Below are positions 1 to 29,082 of a DNA stretch of 32,327 bases, piece after piece. The notes under the pieces are model-generated. The model was not told where the DNA came from, did not search any database, and saw nothing but the letters and a program-made list of their open reading frames with translations. A program made the position numbers and the translations under genes. Numbering within the stretch: position 1 is the stretch's first letter; every line of letters starts with the position of its first letter. Source of the stretch: a virus; IMG/VR virus record IMGVR_UViG_3300003323_000322, positions 1 through 32,327 of that record; one strand, 5' to 3'.

Positions 1-299
1 CGGAGTTCGTCCAGCCTCGCTCGGTGCCGTGGCATCGCATGTATTTCGGTATCTGTCGCGAGATCGGGAAGAACCAGGACCCGACTCGCGACGAGGCTAG
101 CATCGACAGTGAGCTACGGGTTCGGGCTGGCCACTTCGATGTGATCTGGGTAGACGGCCATGAATGCCGAGTGCCTAAACGAATCGCTTTCGCCCGGCTG
201 ACTGCGGACGAATGGGCTGAGCTGTGGCCGTCGCTCGACCTCGCGATTCGTGAGCACTTCGGCGAAGAGTATCTCGGCGAGCAGAGGATGGCGGGATGA
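1..299 (+). CDS. DUF1367-like phage protein, 5' end cut by window edge
   Basis: The reading frame is open to the left edge, so the true start lies outside the window; a GTG at 24 is only the first internal start. The visible part has the pattern R-S-x-P-W-H-R-M-Y-F near its N-terminus and later GHFDVIWVDG and PKRIAFARL, which match my memory of the DUF1367 family of lambdoid phages (aromatic/His block, then G-(F/Y)-D-x-x-V and P-K-S-I-A-F). The function of that family is not established; its members lie in nin-like regions beside recombination genes. Its stop overlaps the next start (ATGA at 296-299), so the two are probably co-translated. Confidence 0.6.
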   Translation, partial: EFVQPRSVPWHRMYFGICREIGKNQDPTRDEASIDSELRVRAGHFDVIWVDGHECRVPKRIAFARLTADEWAELWPSLDLAIREHFGEEYLGEQRMAG

Positions 300-658
300 T
301 CTTCGAAAGCCAGAAGCTGCGCGACGCGCCCAAGGGGAAGCCCTGCGTCCGCTGCGCCTCGCGGCCGCACACAACGGTTGGTGCGCACTACACAGGCATG
401 CGTCGTGGCTCCTATGGGGGCGGGCTGGGCCAGAAAGTCTGGGACTTCTGCATGGCTGACCTATGCGACATGTGTCACGAGTGGATGGATCGGCTATCCC
501 GCGACAAGTCCCGCGCCATCGAGCACAGCGAGGAGTTTCAGCACCTGATTCTTCTCACGCTCATGCGTCGGTTCGATGAGGGCGTGATCGTCGTGAAAGG
601 TCAGCGCGACCCACGCCCGGTCCGCATCCCGAAAATCTTCCGTAGGCCGCTCGCATGA
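296..658 (+). CDS. YbcO/DUF1364-like putative nuclease
   Basis: This 120-residue protein has C17-V-R-C20, then T-V-G-A-H31-Y-T-G, a glycine-rich G-x-G-x-K block and D-L-C57-D-M-C60-H61, followed by H-S-E-E-F-x-H-L-I-L-L-T-L. That order (Cys pair, A-H-x-x-G, C-x2-C-H, late His/Arg helix) is the pattern of the YbcO/DUF1364 family, small HNH/His-Me-finger-like nucleases of lambdoid nin regions thought to act on recombination intermediates. The assignment rests on motif recall, not an alignment. The start has AGAGGA about 8 bases upstream and overlaps the previous stop. The gene supports the idea that the left block corresponds to a nin region. Confidence 0.6.
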   Translation: MIFESQKLRDAPKGKPCVRCASRPHTTVGAHYTGMRRGSYGGGLGQKVWDFCMADLCDMCHEWMDRLSRDKSRAIEHSEEFQHLILLTLMRRFDEGVIVVKGQRDPRPVRIPKIFRRPLA

Positions 659-704: not shown

Positions 705-1289
705 ATGCCAACCGGATACACAGCGCCAATTAAGGACGGAATCAGCTTCCGGGACTATGCGCTGAACTGCGCGCGTGCGTTCGGAGCGCTCGTCACCATG
801 CGCGACGAGCCAAGCGATGCTCCAATCCCCGAGAAGTTTGAGCCATCCAACTGGCACGCGGAACAGCTTCAGATTGCCTCGGATCGGCTCGCCCAACTCC
901 GCCTGATGAGTCCAGCCGAGTGTGAGGCGGCTGCTGTGGCGGACTACAACGCGGCGATGGAGGAACGCGCCAAGCGCATGCGTGAAAACGACGAGCTGCG
1001 AGCTAAATACGAAGCGATGCTCGCGCAGGTAGTCGCGTGGCAGGCCCCGACGCGCGACCACGTCGAGTACAAGGCTTTCATGGAGAAACAGCTTCGGGAG
1101 AGCATCGACTGGGACTGTCAGCTACTCGGAGACGTGCCAGAACAATCAACTGGCGCCCAGTGGCTTGAGCTTCAGATCAGCAAATCGGAGTGGGCGGTGA
1201 ACTACCACACGCAGCATGACGCGGACGAGCGCAAACGTGTCGATGGCCGCAACGCGTGGATCAAGGCCTTGCGCGACTCGCTCCCATGA
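705..1289 (+). CDS. Conserved phage protein, MPTGYTAPIKDGISF type, coiled coil
   Basis: A 194-residue soluble protein with a strong ribosome site (GGAGA seven bases before ATG). It opens with MPTGYTAPIKDGISFRDYA and then C-A-R-A-F-G-A-L-V-T-M-R-D, a sequence I recall as a frequently annotated hypothetical in proteobacterial phages and prophages. The middle (about residues 65-115) is charged and Ala/Glu/Arg-rich, predicted helical and possibly coiled coil; the C-terminal third is W- and D-rich. No signal peptide or membrane segment is seen. Function is unknown. It lies just upstream of csrA, and its stop is 69 bases before that gene's ATG. Confidence 0.8.
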   Translation: MPTGYTAPIKDGISFRDYALNCARAFGALVTMRDEPSDAPIPEKFEPSNWHAEQLQIASDRLAQLRLMSPAECEAAAVADYNAAMEERAKRMRENDELRAKYEAMLAQVVAWQAPTRDHVEYKAFMEKQLRESIDWDCQLLGDVPEQSTGAQWLELQISKSEWAVNYHTQHDADERKRVDGRNAWIKALRDSLP

Positions 1290-1322: not shown

Positions 1323-1364
1323 GATTCTCGACCCTGACGAATAACTACAGCAAGAGGAATGCCC

Positions 1365-1562
1365 TTGTTAATACTCACTCGAAAAATTGGCGAGACGATC
1401 GACATCACGCTCGAGGACGGCCGCCGTATCGAGGTTGCTTTCTTGGGGGTCAAGGGGAATCAGAGCCGCGTAGGGATAACTGCGCCGAAGACGGTTGTCG
1501 TTGACAGGTCGGAGATCACCCAAAGAAAGAGCAATGAGCGGGACGGTAACGGCAATGTTTAA
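1365..1562 (+). CDS. csrA: CsrA/RsmA-family translational regulator
   Basis: The product reads [14 protein letters not shown], then [19 protein letters not shown] and [11 protein letters not shown], a clear CsrA match across the whole family. CsrA dimers bind GGA motifs in mRNA leaders and block or alter translation. The RNA-contacting residues of E. coli CsrA (L4, R6 and the Arg of V-H-R-E-E-I) are kept as L4, R6 and R48; the usual His before that Arg is Asp. The beta1-beta2 loop is about four residues longer than in E. coli. I chose the TTG at 1365 because it gives the canonical M-L-I-L-T-R start and sits six bases after AGAGGA; an ATG at 1359 abuts that site and would add two residues. Family assignment is firm; targets are unknown. 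Confidence 0.92.
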
Positions 1563-4673: not shown

Positions 4674-4934
4674 ATGACTATCTGTCCACACACGCGTCAT
4701 CAGTGCCACTGCCAGCCAGATGAAGGCGTGTTCTGTCCGTACGGAATCGACGTCCACGACCCTGCCGGCATGGTTTCGTATCTGCGAGAGCGTGCCCGGG
4801 CCAACCGCGAACTTGCGTCGGTACCGGTGGACAAATGGCCGCGATTCCCAGATGTGGCGAGACATGTGGCGCTACGACTGGATCAGGCGGCAGACATGCT
4901 TGAGCGCCTTGCGGGCGAACCGGAGAAACGTTGA
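4674..4934 (+). CDS. Small Cys/His-rich protein
   Basis: ATG 4674 gives 86 residues starting MTICPHTRHQCHCQPDEGVF with C-x-H-x5-C-x-C and a further Cys, a plausible metal site, then a helical second half (VARHVALRLDQAADMLERLA). The same frame is open to 4479, but that upstream part is antisense-like shadow of the neighbouring gene. The ribosome site is weak. Its TGA shares a base with the next ATG (TGATG). Confidence 0.6.
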   Translation: MTICPHTRHQCHCQPDEGVFCPYGIDVHDPAGMVSYLRERARANRELASVPVDKWPRFPDVARHVALRLDQAADMLERLAGEPEKR

Positions 4935-5710
4935 TGACAAACGAGCAGAGCTGTCGGGGCGCATTGGAGCGAATCCTCGCGTTCGTGACGGACGATGAAC
5001 GCATGACTCATTGGGATAGCTGGCGCGCGTACATCGCGAACGGCGGAAAAGCGTCTCTGCCGCGTGACGGATTCGAGTCATTACTTGACTGGATCGCTGA
5101 AGAAGCACGCGAGGCGTTAGGCACTGACGAACCGAGAGCGAATCCAGGAGACGATATCTTGGACGAGCTTGAGGCGCGCGGTGACAACCTATCCAGGCGT
5201 GCGGCTCGATATATCCGGTGCAAGCTCGCGATGCTCGGAGAGCATCCCGACCGACAGGCAGAACCGAGAGCGTCTCAGCCTGGTTTTTGGGTCTGCGCGG
5301 GATGCAAGGGCGACAACTTCCCTACCGACTCAACGTGCGCCCACTGCGGTGGGAGCCGGCAGGCCGCGCCTCGCTCGTATCCCGCAATCCACTCTCTAGG
5401 CGGGTGGCGCTGTAGCTGCGAGCAATGGAACGACTTCTCCAACGACGTCTGCAAGACGTGCGGGCGACCACGTGTGAACCGGCCGTTCGAGCAGACCTTG
5501 CCCGCGCCAGGCAAAGCGGCTTCGGTGGAAGGTTATGCCGCGATCGAAATGCCGGACGGCTTCAAGGCCGAAGCGAGGGCGGCGACTCAAATCGAAGCTG
5601 GGACGCTGCTCCTCGAACAGCTCAAAACACACTATGGACGTGAGTTCCGACTGACCGATAGTGACGGCACAGTGATTTGCACCACTGAGAACCGGGGAGC
5701 AAAGCCGTGA
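4934..5710 (+). CDS. Protein with two RanBP2-type zinc fingers
   Basis: The longest early gene besides integrase (258 residues). ATG 4934 has GGAGA seven bases upstream. Residues 1-65 are helical (ERILAFVTDDERMTHWDSW, then GFESLLDWIAEEAREAL). Residues 119-138 fit W-x-C-x2-C-x3-N-x6-C-x2-C exactly (W119, C121, C124, N128, C135, C138), the RanBP2-type finger; a second copy at 158-176 has W158, C160, C162, N166, C173, C176 with one residue less in the first Cys pair. The C-terminal 70 residues form a mixed alpha/beta tail. In eukaryotes such fingers bind single-stranded RNA or ubiquitin; the phage role is unknown. The finger assignment comes from the visible pattern. Confidence 0.8.
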   Translation: MTNEQSCRGALERILAFVTDDERMTHWDSWRAYIANGGKASLPRDGFESLLDWIAEEAREALGTDEPRANPGDDILDELEARGDNLSRRAARYIRCKLAMLGEHPDRQAEPRASQPGFWVCAGCKGDNFPTDSTCAHCGGSRQAAPRSYPAIHSLGGWRCSCEQWNDFSNDVCKTCGRPRVNRPFEQTLPAPGKAASVEGYAAIEMPDGFKAEARAATQIEAGTLLLEQLKTHYGREFRLTDSDGTVICTTENRGAKP

Positions 5711-6414: not shown

Positions 6415-6633
6415 ATGAGCGACCTGCTTTCCGAAAACGAGATCGTGGAGCTGACTGGCAAAACCAAGCACTCCGCGCAGGCTCGTGAGCTCGCAAAACT
6501 AGGCATCCGTTGCCGGCCACGGAGCAACGGCACACTGATCGTCGCTCGCGAGCATCGTGACGCGGTGTTGGGATTGCGTAAGACTGTGCGCCACATCGAG
6601 CAGGCTGGACCGAACTTCGCCGCTCTGGATTGA
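6415..6633 (+). CDS. DUF4224-like protein, candidate excisionase
   Basis: A 72-residue protein starting MSDLLSENEIVELTGKTKHS and continuing QARELAKLGI then R-S-N-G-T-L-I-V. This is the DUF4224 pattern (S-x-x-E-I-x-E-L-T-G-x-x-x-x-x-x-Q-x-x-x-L-x-x-x-G-I), a small winged-helix-like DNA-binding family usually found directly upstream of a tyrosine integrase. By position it is a candidate recombination directionality factor. It ends three bases before the integrase start. Confidence 0.7.
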   Translation: MSDLLSENEIVELTGKTKHSAQARELAKLGIRCRPRSNGTLIVAREHRDAVLGLRKTVRHIEQAGPNFAALD

Positions 6634-6636
6634 GAT

Positions 6637-7644
6637 ATGGGCAGAAGAAGAACAAAGAACCCCGGTCTCCCGAAATACGTCCGCCGATCGTCAGCATCGT
6701 TCTACTACGAGAATCCAGTCACTCGCGAGTGCGTCACCTTGGCGCCAATAAATGATTGGCCAGGGATGCTTACCGCGCTCGCCCGCATCCTTCAGGCGAA
6801 CGCGCCGACGAACACACTCGAGAACCTGTGGGCAAAGTATCAGGTGGACGAGCTTCCTACACTTGCGAAGAAGACCCAACAGACCCGCCCGCAGCAGATG
6901 AAGAGACCCCTCGCTGTCTTCGGCAAGATGAGCCCTGAGGCTATCGAGCCACATCACGCATGGACCTATTGGAAGAAGCGCGGCGAGACCGAACAGGCGA
7001 AGAAGGAGATTCGCGCCATGTCAGCCCTGATCACCTACGCGCGGAAGGTTGGAGCTCGGAAAGCGGATAATCCTTGGTTCAAACTCGGGCTGGAGGTGAA
7101 AAACCAGAAGCCCAGACCGTACGTTACGGATGAAATGTTCTATGCCGTGCGTGACATCGCCCCACCGATGCTTGGGTATGCGATGGACCTCGCGTGGTGC
7201 GCCGGGCTCGACGGCGCAACGATCCGCCGCTTGGAGAGGCGGCACATCACGGAAACTGGCCTGGTATTCGAACGCGGCAAGACCGGCAAGCTGCAGCAGA
7301 TCGACGGGCCGGACCTCGTGGAAATTCTGCGCGCCGCGCTTCGCCTGCCGCCACAGCTACGGCGTTTCATTATCTGCGCTCGTGGGGGCAAGCCCTACAC
7401 CGCGGACGGCTTCCAGAGCGCTTGGCAGGACGCTATAGCGAAGGCAATCAGGCTGGGAAGACTTGATAAGTCCCAGCGCTATGGACTGCACGATCTGCGT
7501 GGCAAGGCTGGCAGCGAGGCTGCGAGCGACGAGCAGGCGAAGAACCTGCTCGGACACTCAGACGTGAAGGTGACCCGCGAACACTATCGACGTTTGCCCC
7601 AGCGTGCGGAGGCGCTGAAGATCCTCGGGCGGGACCGGAAATGA
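6637..7644 (+). CDS. int: Phage tyrosine integrase with divergent box I
   Basis: A 335-residue tyrosine recombinase that would recombine attP with a host tRNA-Arg gene. The N-terminal 65 residues form an arm-binding-like region, residues about 60-155 the core-binding SAM-like domain, and 160-320 the catalytic domain. Visible catalytic residues are K215 (RGKTGK), H285 and R288 (LHDLR), H307 (LLGHSD) and Y317 (REHYRR). The first catalytic arginine, normally in T-G-x-R, is Asp here (CAGLDGATIRRL, D192); R197 or R198 a few residues on might substitute. It is followed by the attP core about 120 bases downstream, the usual arrangement. The integrase call is firm; activity is uncertain because of box I. 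Confidence 0.93.
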   Translation: MGRRRTKNPGLPKYVRRSSASFYYENPVTRECVTLAPINDWPGMLTALARILQANAPTNTLENLWAKYQVDELPTLAKKTQQTRPQQMKRPLAVFGKMSPEAIEPHHAWTYWKKRGETEQAKKEIRAMSALITYARKVGARKADNPWFKLGLEVKNQKPRPYVTDEMFYAVRDIAPPMLGYAMDLAWCAGLDGATIRRLERRHITETGLVFERGKTGKLQQIDGPDLVEILRAALRLPPQLRRFIICARGGKPYTADGFQSAWQDAIAKAIRLGRLDKSQRYGLHDLRGKAGSEAASDEQAKNLLGHSDVKVTREHYRRLPQRAEALKILGRDRK

Positions 7645-7991
7645 CGTCTGTAATTTCCGAGCGACATCTAGAATCACCGATGGATTCCATCGTTTCCGAA
7701 AGTGTTTTTTACAGATCGATCACGCTTGATTCTTCAGTAGCTACGCGGCCTTGGGCGATTCCGAAAGGCCGCCTCCTAAGCGGTAGGTCACAGGTTCAAC
7801 TCCTGTCGGGGGCGCCAAAATCTCACCGGCCAATCTGTAAAAGCGCAGCAAAATCTGTAATTCCGCGGGTCATCGGCCGCCACGGCTCGCGTTACATCGT
7901 AGAGATACGCGTGCGCGGAAAGCCGACCCTGCGCTACCTGACAGGGGAGCAACTGCGTGGCTTTGGTGTTAGTGCGCCTTCAGAACCGTGA
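7641..7991 (+). CDS. Frame running through attP; C-terminal part looks like protein
   Basis: An ATG overlaps the integrase stop (ATGA at 7641-7644) and opens a 116-residue frame that runs through the tRNA-derived core. The first two thirds look non-coding, but the last 45 residues (VIGRHGSRYIVEIRVRGKPT, then LRYLTGEQLRGFG) look like a small basic beta-rich protein. There is no ATG, GTG or TTG start downstream of the core in this frame, so the C-terminal segment needs the upstream start. On integration the frame would be split at the tRNA. A relic is equally possible. Confidence 0.35.
   Translation: MTSVISERHLESPMDSIVSESVFYRSITLDSSVATRPWAIPKGRLLSGRSQVQLLSGAPKSHRPICKSAAKSVIPRVIGRHGSRYIVEIRVRGKPTLRYLTGEQLRGFGVSAPSEP
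7745..7772. repeat. 8-bp perfect inverted repeat at the left edge of the attP core
   Basis: GCGGCCTT (7745-7752) and AAGGCCGC (7765-7772) are perfect complements separated by 12 bases. The right arm is also the 5' strand of the tRNA anticodon stem, so this hairpin and the anticodon stem are mutually exclusive. It may mark a core-type site or simply pair by chance. Confidence 0.5.
7768..7817 (+). other. attP: attP core: 3' half of tRNA-Arg(CCU)
   Basis: The segment folds as a tRNA 3' half: anticodon stem GCCGC/GCGGT around loop CTCCTAA (anticodon CCT), five-base variable loop AGGTC, T stem ACAGG/CCTGT with loop TTCAACT, 3' acceptor strand CGGGGGC, discriminator G and encoded CCA. No D arm or matching 5' acceptor strand (GCCCCCG) precedes it, so it is not a complete tRNA. 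Phages that integrate in tRNA genes carry such a piece to restore the gene. With integrase on one side and lysis genes on the other, this reads as attP rather than attL or attR. Confidence 0.85.
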
Positions 7992-27988: not shown

Positions 27989-28252
27989 TTACTCCACGTG
28001 ATAGGGCACGCGTTCCCAACGGGATGGCTCTTTGCCATCCGCAGCCACGAGAAGAACGGTGCAATTTTTGGTCAGAAGGTAGTTCTGCAGGTCGCAGAGC
28101 CTGCGGTAATAGGCCATCGCGCTCTTGCGCAACTCGTCGATGTCATCGGACAGAAGCGGATCTTCCGGCTCGTGTAGAGCGCTCTCCCCGTCGAATCTGG
28201 CAAGGCATCGGAACTCGAGCCGGGTACGAATCGCTACTGCGTCATTGCTCAT
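27989..28252 (-). CDS. Small phage protein of unknown function
   Basis: Eighty-seven residues (IRTRLEFRCLARFDGESALH, then DDIDELRKSAMAYYRRLCDL and YLLTKNCTVLLVAADG). It is mixed alpha/beta and soluble. ATG 28252 overlaps the stop of the repeat protein by four bases. No domain recognised. Confidence 0.6.
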   Translation of the reverse strand: MSNDAVAIRTRLEFRCLARFDGESALHEPEDPLLSDDIDELRKSAMAYYRRLCDLQNYLLTKNCTVLLVAADGKEPSRWERVPYHVE

Positions 28253-29082
28253 AGAAAATCGAATCTCATGGAAGGGCCTTGTATCTCGAAGCGCATGGAC
28301 TCCACCGCACCGGACTGAGTCGGCGGTGTGACGCGGACCAATCCGCTTGATTCGGTCAGAGCGACCGACAGAACGTCCCCAACGGTGACTTCCAACGTGC
28401 CGGCGAATATCTGCACCTGAGCGGTGTCTGTAAGAGACACCGACAGCGTGTCGGTTACCGTCTTGTCTACTGTCAGAGTGCCGACCGCGCTCGTATCCGT
28501 AATGCTTACGGAGAGCGTATCGGTGACGCCCAACGAGACGCCTAGAGCGACGGACTCGGTCAGGGATACCGAAATGGTATCCGTGACATCAACCAGGACG
28601 ACTCCGGCTTTTAGTAGCGCCAGAGTCTCGCTTACCCCAACAGTCAGCGAATCAGCAACGCTGATGTTGTTGAAGAGCGCGCTGCTCTCAGTCAGCGATA
28701 CCCGTACGGTGTCGCTGGTGACGATTTCCTGCTCGCTGACCGGCTCTTCGATTATCTGGACAAGAAGCGAATCCGAGACATCGACAGCGAACGTTGTGAC
28801 AACCGACTTATCGCCGATCGCGACATAGGGGCGCGGACCTCCATAGAGACCGCGCTGTGTCAGGTAGCTGTCTACCTGAGTAGTCAATACCGCAGATGTA
28901 TCGCTCAGCGAGACGGACAGAGTGTCCGTGACACTGACGGCAATGCTCATCAGGAGCGATGAGCTGTCAGTAACAGATACCGAGAGGGTATCGGTGACCG
29001 TGCTAGCCTGCGCTAGTGGAGCAGGTGCCGGGCCAGGCCCTCCATAGAGGGCGAGAAAGGTATCTGCCCGGATGAATGCCAT
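28249..29082 (-). CDS. DTLSVS-repeat protein, putative fibre or adhesin
   Basis: A 277-residue protein made largely of degenerate repeats V-(T/S)-D-(T/S)-L-S-V-S-(L/V/I)-(T/S)-(D/E)-(T/S)-(S/A)-(A/S)-(L/V), about nine copies of a roughly 16-residue unit spaced 20-35 residues apart. Two LYGGP(G/R)P segments (near residues 12 and 85) divide it. Strong Val/Ser/Thr/Asp alternation suggests regular beta structure, such as a fibrous or beta-roll shaft. The end (SMRFEIQGPSMRFDF) is distinct. No signal peptide. A virion surface role is inferred from neighbours and composition. Confidence 0.7.
   Translation of the reverse strand: MAFIRADTFLALYGGPGPAPAPLAQASTVTDTLSVSVTDSSSLLMSIAVSVTDTLSVSLSDTSAVLTTQVDSYLTQRGLYGGPRPYVAIGDKSVVTTFAVDVSDSLLVQIIEEPVSEQEIVTSDTVRVSLTESSALFNNISVADSLTVGVSETLALLKAGVVLVDVTDTISVSLTESVALGVSLGVTDTLSVSITDTSAVGTLTVDKTVTDTLSVSLTDTAQVQIFAGTLEVTVGDVLSVALTESSGLVRVTPPTQSGAVESMRFEIQGPSMRFDFL

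Follow-up and report, generated by a model that had tools for sequence, protein, structure and literature searches.

The window analysed here, 32,327 bases long, is an IMG/VR virus record of the linear class, whose members are often fragments. Small plus-strand genes run from its left edge up to an excisionase (6415–6633 (+); phrog_1266, 1.4e-11) and a tyrosine-recombinase integrase (6637–7644 (+); phrog_1, 2.8e-24), and the minus strand carries a late block (8364–32058) of genes for lysis, tail, the head-closure protein Hc3, the major head protein, a P22-type portal and terminase. Near the left edge, an HNH/YbcO-like nuclease gene (296–658 (+), from a PHROG match) lies upstream of a pair formed by a phrog_8905 gene (705–1289 (+), likewise a PHROG match), whose protein has no known function, and, directly downstream of it, csrA (1365–1562 (+)), the subject of this analysis. 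A preliminary description had placed csrA in the early region of a phage; it sits in the non-structural, integrase-bearing block of a temperate phage. Two further proteins of the window deserve mention: a 259-aa product of the non-structural block (4931–5710 (+)), which weakly matches a RanBP-type zinc finger (2.5e-05, under the curated cut-off) and has a further cluster of cysteines, and a protein at 28249–29082 (−) that consists mostly of repeated VTDTLSVSLTDT-like units and is probably a repetitive virion or tail protein.

To the right of the integrase lies a 50-nt attP core (7769–7818 (+)) that matches the 3' part of a tRNA-Arg(CCT) gene exactly. Among the genomes searched, an exact 36-nt match to this core occurred in one only, the Proteobacteria MAG JANYBG01, which holds both an intact tRNA-Arg(CCT) and a second att-core copy on another contig (L026:1161-1236, L027:536-571), so that the integration site already appears occupied. 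The attP identity and the occupied-looking site together identify the phage as temperate, and by terminase its nearest annotated phages are a Manatee Spring podovirus and the F116/H66-like Hollowayvirus group (57–59%). The window is part of the genome of a P22/F116-like temperate phage whose integration site is tRNA-Arg(CCT); its host, placed from the attP match alone, is probably near JANYBG01. No integrated relative turned up when bacterial genomes were scanned with the portal.

The csrA gene codes for 65 amino acids at 1365–1559, with its stop codon ending at 1562. An in-frame ATG at 1359 touches the Shine–Dalgarno sequence AGAGGA (1353–1358 (+)) with zero spacing, the TTG at 1365 is spaced from it by 6 nt, and the csrA of a second phage, G007 (IMGVR_UViG_3300037692_000167), begins with GTG at the matching codon; TTG 1365 is therefore the better start, as originally assigned. 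A predicted weak hairpin (CAAG...CTTG) takes in both the Shine–Dalgarno sequence and the TTG start and is a suggestive candidate for a self-regulation site, with a folding score that is not significant against shuffles (z −1.58). The proposal that the leader holds a conserved GGA hairpin was rejected on that score, and because no matching hairpin was evident in G007 or in L043, the csrA of a third phage.

The product belongs to the CsrA family by its match to Pfam PF02599 (4e-15, 55.9 bits against a 27-bit cut-off, residues 4–56) and to phrog_9500, 'CsrA-like regulator' (4.9e-19). Matches to the NCBIfam csrA equivalogs (2e-16 and 1.1e-14) both fell under the curated cut-offs (NF002469, 59.7 against 73 bits; TIGR00202, 54.4 against 70.1 bits), leaving it outside the equivalog 'carbon storage regulator CsrA'. 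By sequence and alignment it retains the RNA-contact residues L4, R6 and R48 (E. coli R44), as well as R35 and the GNQxR core, and the MLILTR stretch of β1 is among its best-kept parts. Family identity and kept RNA contacts, both asserted in the preliminary description, are thereby confirmed from Pfam, PHROG, alignment and the structural model described below. Identity to the ordinary CsrA of JANYBG01, the putative host lineage, is 53%.

A six-frame search of the window for a second CsrA, including a structural-operon copy of the kind present in phages H66 and BcepMigl, found none. In those two phages, the structural operon includes a gene for a second CsrA-like protein of diverged sequence, directly before the major capsid gene in BcepMigl (gp50, L040:3980-4174) and between virion genes in H66 (gp49, L003:33112-33318), which also has an ordinary RsmM-type CsrA; the two may represent a capsid-linked CsrA lineage.

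Single-sequence structure prediction was poor (pLDDT 63) and was replaced by an AlphaFold2 model based on an alignment of 56 viral CsrAs (pLDDT 90.6), built as a monomer, as strands β1 and β5 are swapped in the CsrA dimer (PMC3791407). The model has the CsrA fold, with strands at 11–15, 21–30 and 33–39 and a C-terminal helix at 49–59, and its best Foldseek match was RsmA (2bti_A; TM 0.78 by query and 0.86 by target, rmsd 1.8), the remaining top ranks being filled by other CsrA/RsmA structures, with 52–55% identity in the structural alignments. The extra residues, 16–20, sit between the strands at 11–15 and 21–30 and form a four-residue insert in the β2–β3 turn, rather than lengthening the β1–β2 loop as first thought. 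Moderate growth of the β2–β3 loop is also seen in other viral and in some bacterial CsrAs. An RsmN-like rearrangement was considered for the insert and rejected, four residues being too short and the C-terminal helix being present. Among bacterial genomes, two CsrA paralogues (L227 and L228, in G459 and G428) are ~16 residues longer at this junction, with an RsmN/RsmF-like layout, and another genome (G527) carries nine CsrA-family genes, several of them mutually similar on different contigs.

Used by itself as a query, the CsrA protein retrieved no viral relative, and a two-sequence alignment retrieved G007 only; among plasmid CsrAs no closer relative was found (best <60% identity). In G007, csrA follows a phrog_8905 gene whose product is 66% identical to that of the window, the order being the same, with the two genes ~1.4 kb apart and an integrase-like ORF downstream. 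Its CsrA shares the DRS motif and NGNV tail of the window protein, has a turn that is longer still, and carries Phe in place of R6, suggesting that RNA binding may not be strictly kept in the group. The L043 protein is 66% identical to the window CsrA over 58 residues and has the same insert, and its gene lies in a phage segment, with a YqaJ recombinase gene ~1.7 kb upstream of it. Other phages also carry csrA in non-structural blocks near recombination functions: near RecT in phi297, beside an exonuclease in VvAW1, and in a block with exonucleases and a single-strand binding protein in H66. G005, the phage with the nearest portal protein (77%), lacks csrA over 42.9 kb, indicating that the gene is optional.

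Phage-borne CsrAs are already known (PMC7366521, PMC8450108, PMC11879866) and were surveyed in 2020 and 2021. The window protein shares its length, fold, MLILTR start, GNQxR core and equivalents of L4, R6 and R44 with E. coli CsrA, P. aeruginosa RsmA and P. protegens RsmE, and differs from all three in having Asp for H43, Lys for I51, four extra β2–β3 residues and an NGNV tail end. RsmM-type CsrAs of P. aeruginosa phages F116, H66 and phi297 (PMC7366521) likewise occupy the non-structural/recombination region of temperate phages, and the window has its structural module in common with H66 and F116-like phages (terminase 57%). The RsmM subfamily, however, comprises proteins of ~124 aa with a long C-terminal extension, an H–I pocket and a normal turn, and the window CsrA, with 65 aa and Asp at the H43 position, lies outside it at ~39–50% identity. 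RsmN/RsmF of P. aeruginosa (PMC3791407) has an insertion at the same β2–β3 junction, but one of 16 residues that forms a helix in a refolded dimer without a C-terminal helix, whereas the modelled window protein has only four extra residues there and keeps its helix. PTXU04_00028 of Escherichia phage PTXU04 (PMC11879866) is also a phage-borne CsrA relative; it differs in its 36% identity to E. coli CsrA over 44 residues, in adjoining a holin gene and in having His at the H43 position.

The window CsrA has D47 at the position of E. coli H43 and, eight residues on, K55 at that of I51. The preliminary description had noted the His-to-Asp change beside the key arginine; the change is real, but is no private oddity, as it recurs in viral CsrAs paired with Lys or Arg at position 55. 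In a first sample of 82 proteins, made up of the 80 viral CsrAs most like that of the window together with it and G007, Asp stood at the H43 position in 21, all of which had Lys or Arg at the I51 position, a combination seen in none of the H-type proteins; L4, R35 and R48 were invariant and R6 was kept in 81. Since this sample was picked by likeness to the window protein, a second was drawn without regard to His or Asp, using a viral DNA pattern that accepts either, is silent on the second site and demands the conserved core. Of its 73 distinct viral CsrAs, 62 were H-type, with no basic residue at the second site (59 Ile, 1 Val, 1 Thr, 1 Ala), and the other 11 D-type, nine of which had Lys or Arg at position 55 compared with 0/62 H-type proteins (Fisher 5.7e-10, on related and hence non-independent sequences). 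Asp was absent from all 111 proteobacterial CsrAs, taken from varied genomes in the phylum of the MAG, the one phylum covered, and from the MAG itself (11/73 against 0/111; Fisher 2.4e-5, again on related sequences). Within these samples, the D-K subtype was found in viral copies only, and in the combined viral set, including one host CsrA, the pair was present in 26 of 138 distinct sequences.

Could the D-K pair mark a single clade? The best trees, from 52 columns, need 9–15 changes, an AU test of one clade gave p 0.107, and significance was not reached in any test of independent origins; 52 columns are too few to settle the matter or to count origins, and we do not use the pair as such a mark. 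A D-type profile was also discarded as a specific detector, its top bacterial matches being ordinary H-type CsrAs. We found no description of a D-K subtype in the literature searched, which does not prove its absence from the literature.

Both positions fall where contacts are known. In RsmE, the looped-out base of the motif is held in a pocket made by Ile47, Ile51, Ala57 and Pro58, and Arg50 sits on the phosphate (PMC3791407); in the complex of CsrA with its protein antagonist CesT, CesT H151 and Y152 stack over CsrA H43, R44, I47, R50, I51 and E54, and Y152 hydrogen-bonds H43 and R44 (PMC5864733). The H43 and I51 sites therefore share one face that touches both RNA and a known antagonist. 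GGA itself is read largely through β5 backbone groups, hydrophobic β1 residues and R44, which the window CsrA keeps, and the economical reading would be that GGA binding is retained and the pocket changed. D47/K55 alters both the antagonist face and the pocket that receives base N of A(N)GGA when it is looped out, and so probably shifts RNA choice or provides escape from host control, instead of abolishing GGA binding. The altered target choice suggested in the preliminary description consequently stays plausible as regards Asp, now as half of a coupled swap at this pocket, but loses the support of the longer loop, which was misplaced and is of a moderate kind found elsewhere too. As a tentative extension, it is possible, if doubtful, that D-K-type CsrAs constitute a virus-evolved class in which Asp and Lys/Arg replace H43 and I51 at the looped-out-base pocket, such that the regulator would choose RNA differently or withstand host CsrA antagonists, with the window protein a member that has a longer turn.

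Most likely the window CsrA works as a regulator of translation whose targets would be GGA-containing mRNAs of the host and possibly of the phage. More specifically, we lean, by a modest degree, towards a functional CsrA/RsmA-type RNA-binding dimer through which the temperate phage would keep its host CsrA-high. The protein would be made together with the non-structural genes, and its dimer would bind A(N)GGA sites over ribosome-binding sites, repressing or stabilising chosen mRNAs. It would supplement the host's own CsrA or override it, holding the cell in a state of growth metabolism with reduced stationary-phase and defence gene output, cas mRNAs being among the candidate targets. A role for phage CsrAs, as originally proposed, has backing in the literature: knock-down of the CsrA homologue in PTXU04 gave smaller plaques (PMC11879866), and in Serratia RsmA represses three CRISPR-Cas systems, phage CsrAs, of which many were found in GenBank and IMG/VR, having been proposed as anti-defence factors (PMC8450108). 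It is from these two results that the CsrA-high proposal derives. In PTXU04, complementation was impossible, expression of the homologue and of several other genes being toxic or interfering with infection (PMC11879866). Counting against a functional CsrA are the sub-cut-off equivalog scores, the loss of R6 in G007, the absence of csrA from G005, and the distance of the PTXU04 protein and its different gene setting.

The main rival, which we regard as fairly unlikely, is that the window CsrA mainly controls the phage's own mRNAs, its own leader included, so as to time lysogeny or early and late translation, any host effects being a by-product. The placing of the csrA Shine–Dalgarno sequence and start within a predicted hairpin would suit such a role, as would a GGA in a predicted hairpin loop in 20/51 leaders of the window and the separate CsrA-like proteins among the virion genes of H66 and before the capsid gene of BcepMigl; leader GGA is, however, expected from Shine–Dalgarno sequences anyway, and the csrA hairpin is neither significant against shuffles nor matched in G007 or L043. 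An improbable alternative has the protein modify the host Csr system with no target choice of its own, by forming mixed dimers with host CsrA or soaking up Csr-type small RNAs. The dimer swaps β1 and β5 (PMC3791407), β1 is well kept here and there is a canonical CsrA in the putative host lineage, but the two proteins are just 53% identical, the β2–β3 turn is longer, and that lineage is named from attP alone.

We give equally little credence to csrA being a passenger that has drifted since its capture from a host and has lost RNA binding. The low equivalog scores, the missing R6 in G007 and the lack of the gene in the close structural relative G005 all fit such decay, whereas the ORF is intact behind a good ribosome-binding site, L4, R6, R35, R48 and the GNQxR core are kept, the D47/K55 change is coupled and not random, and orthologues occur in three phages. 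The host-directed regulator remains our preferred reading.

Phage-borne CsrA as such is known; what appears new, against the papers searched, is the D-K subtype, with two pocket residues changed together. Phage CsrAs are common, with at least 572 confirmed matches in one IMG/VR scan, and yet, as the preliminary description held, almost unstudied, even if they have been surveyed and one, in PTXU04, has been tested. The coupled swap at the RNA pocket offers a concrete handle for distinguishing retuned RNA choice from shielding against host antagonists, and, if either proves true, it would constitute a defined route by which phages seize control of translation in the host, perhaps with CRISPR-Cas repression as one part.
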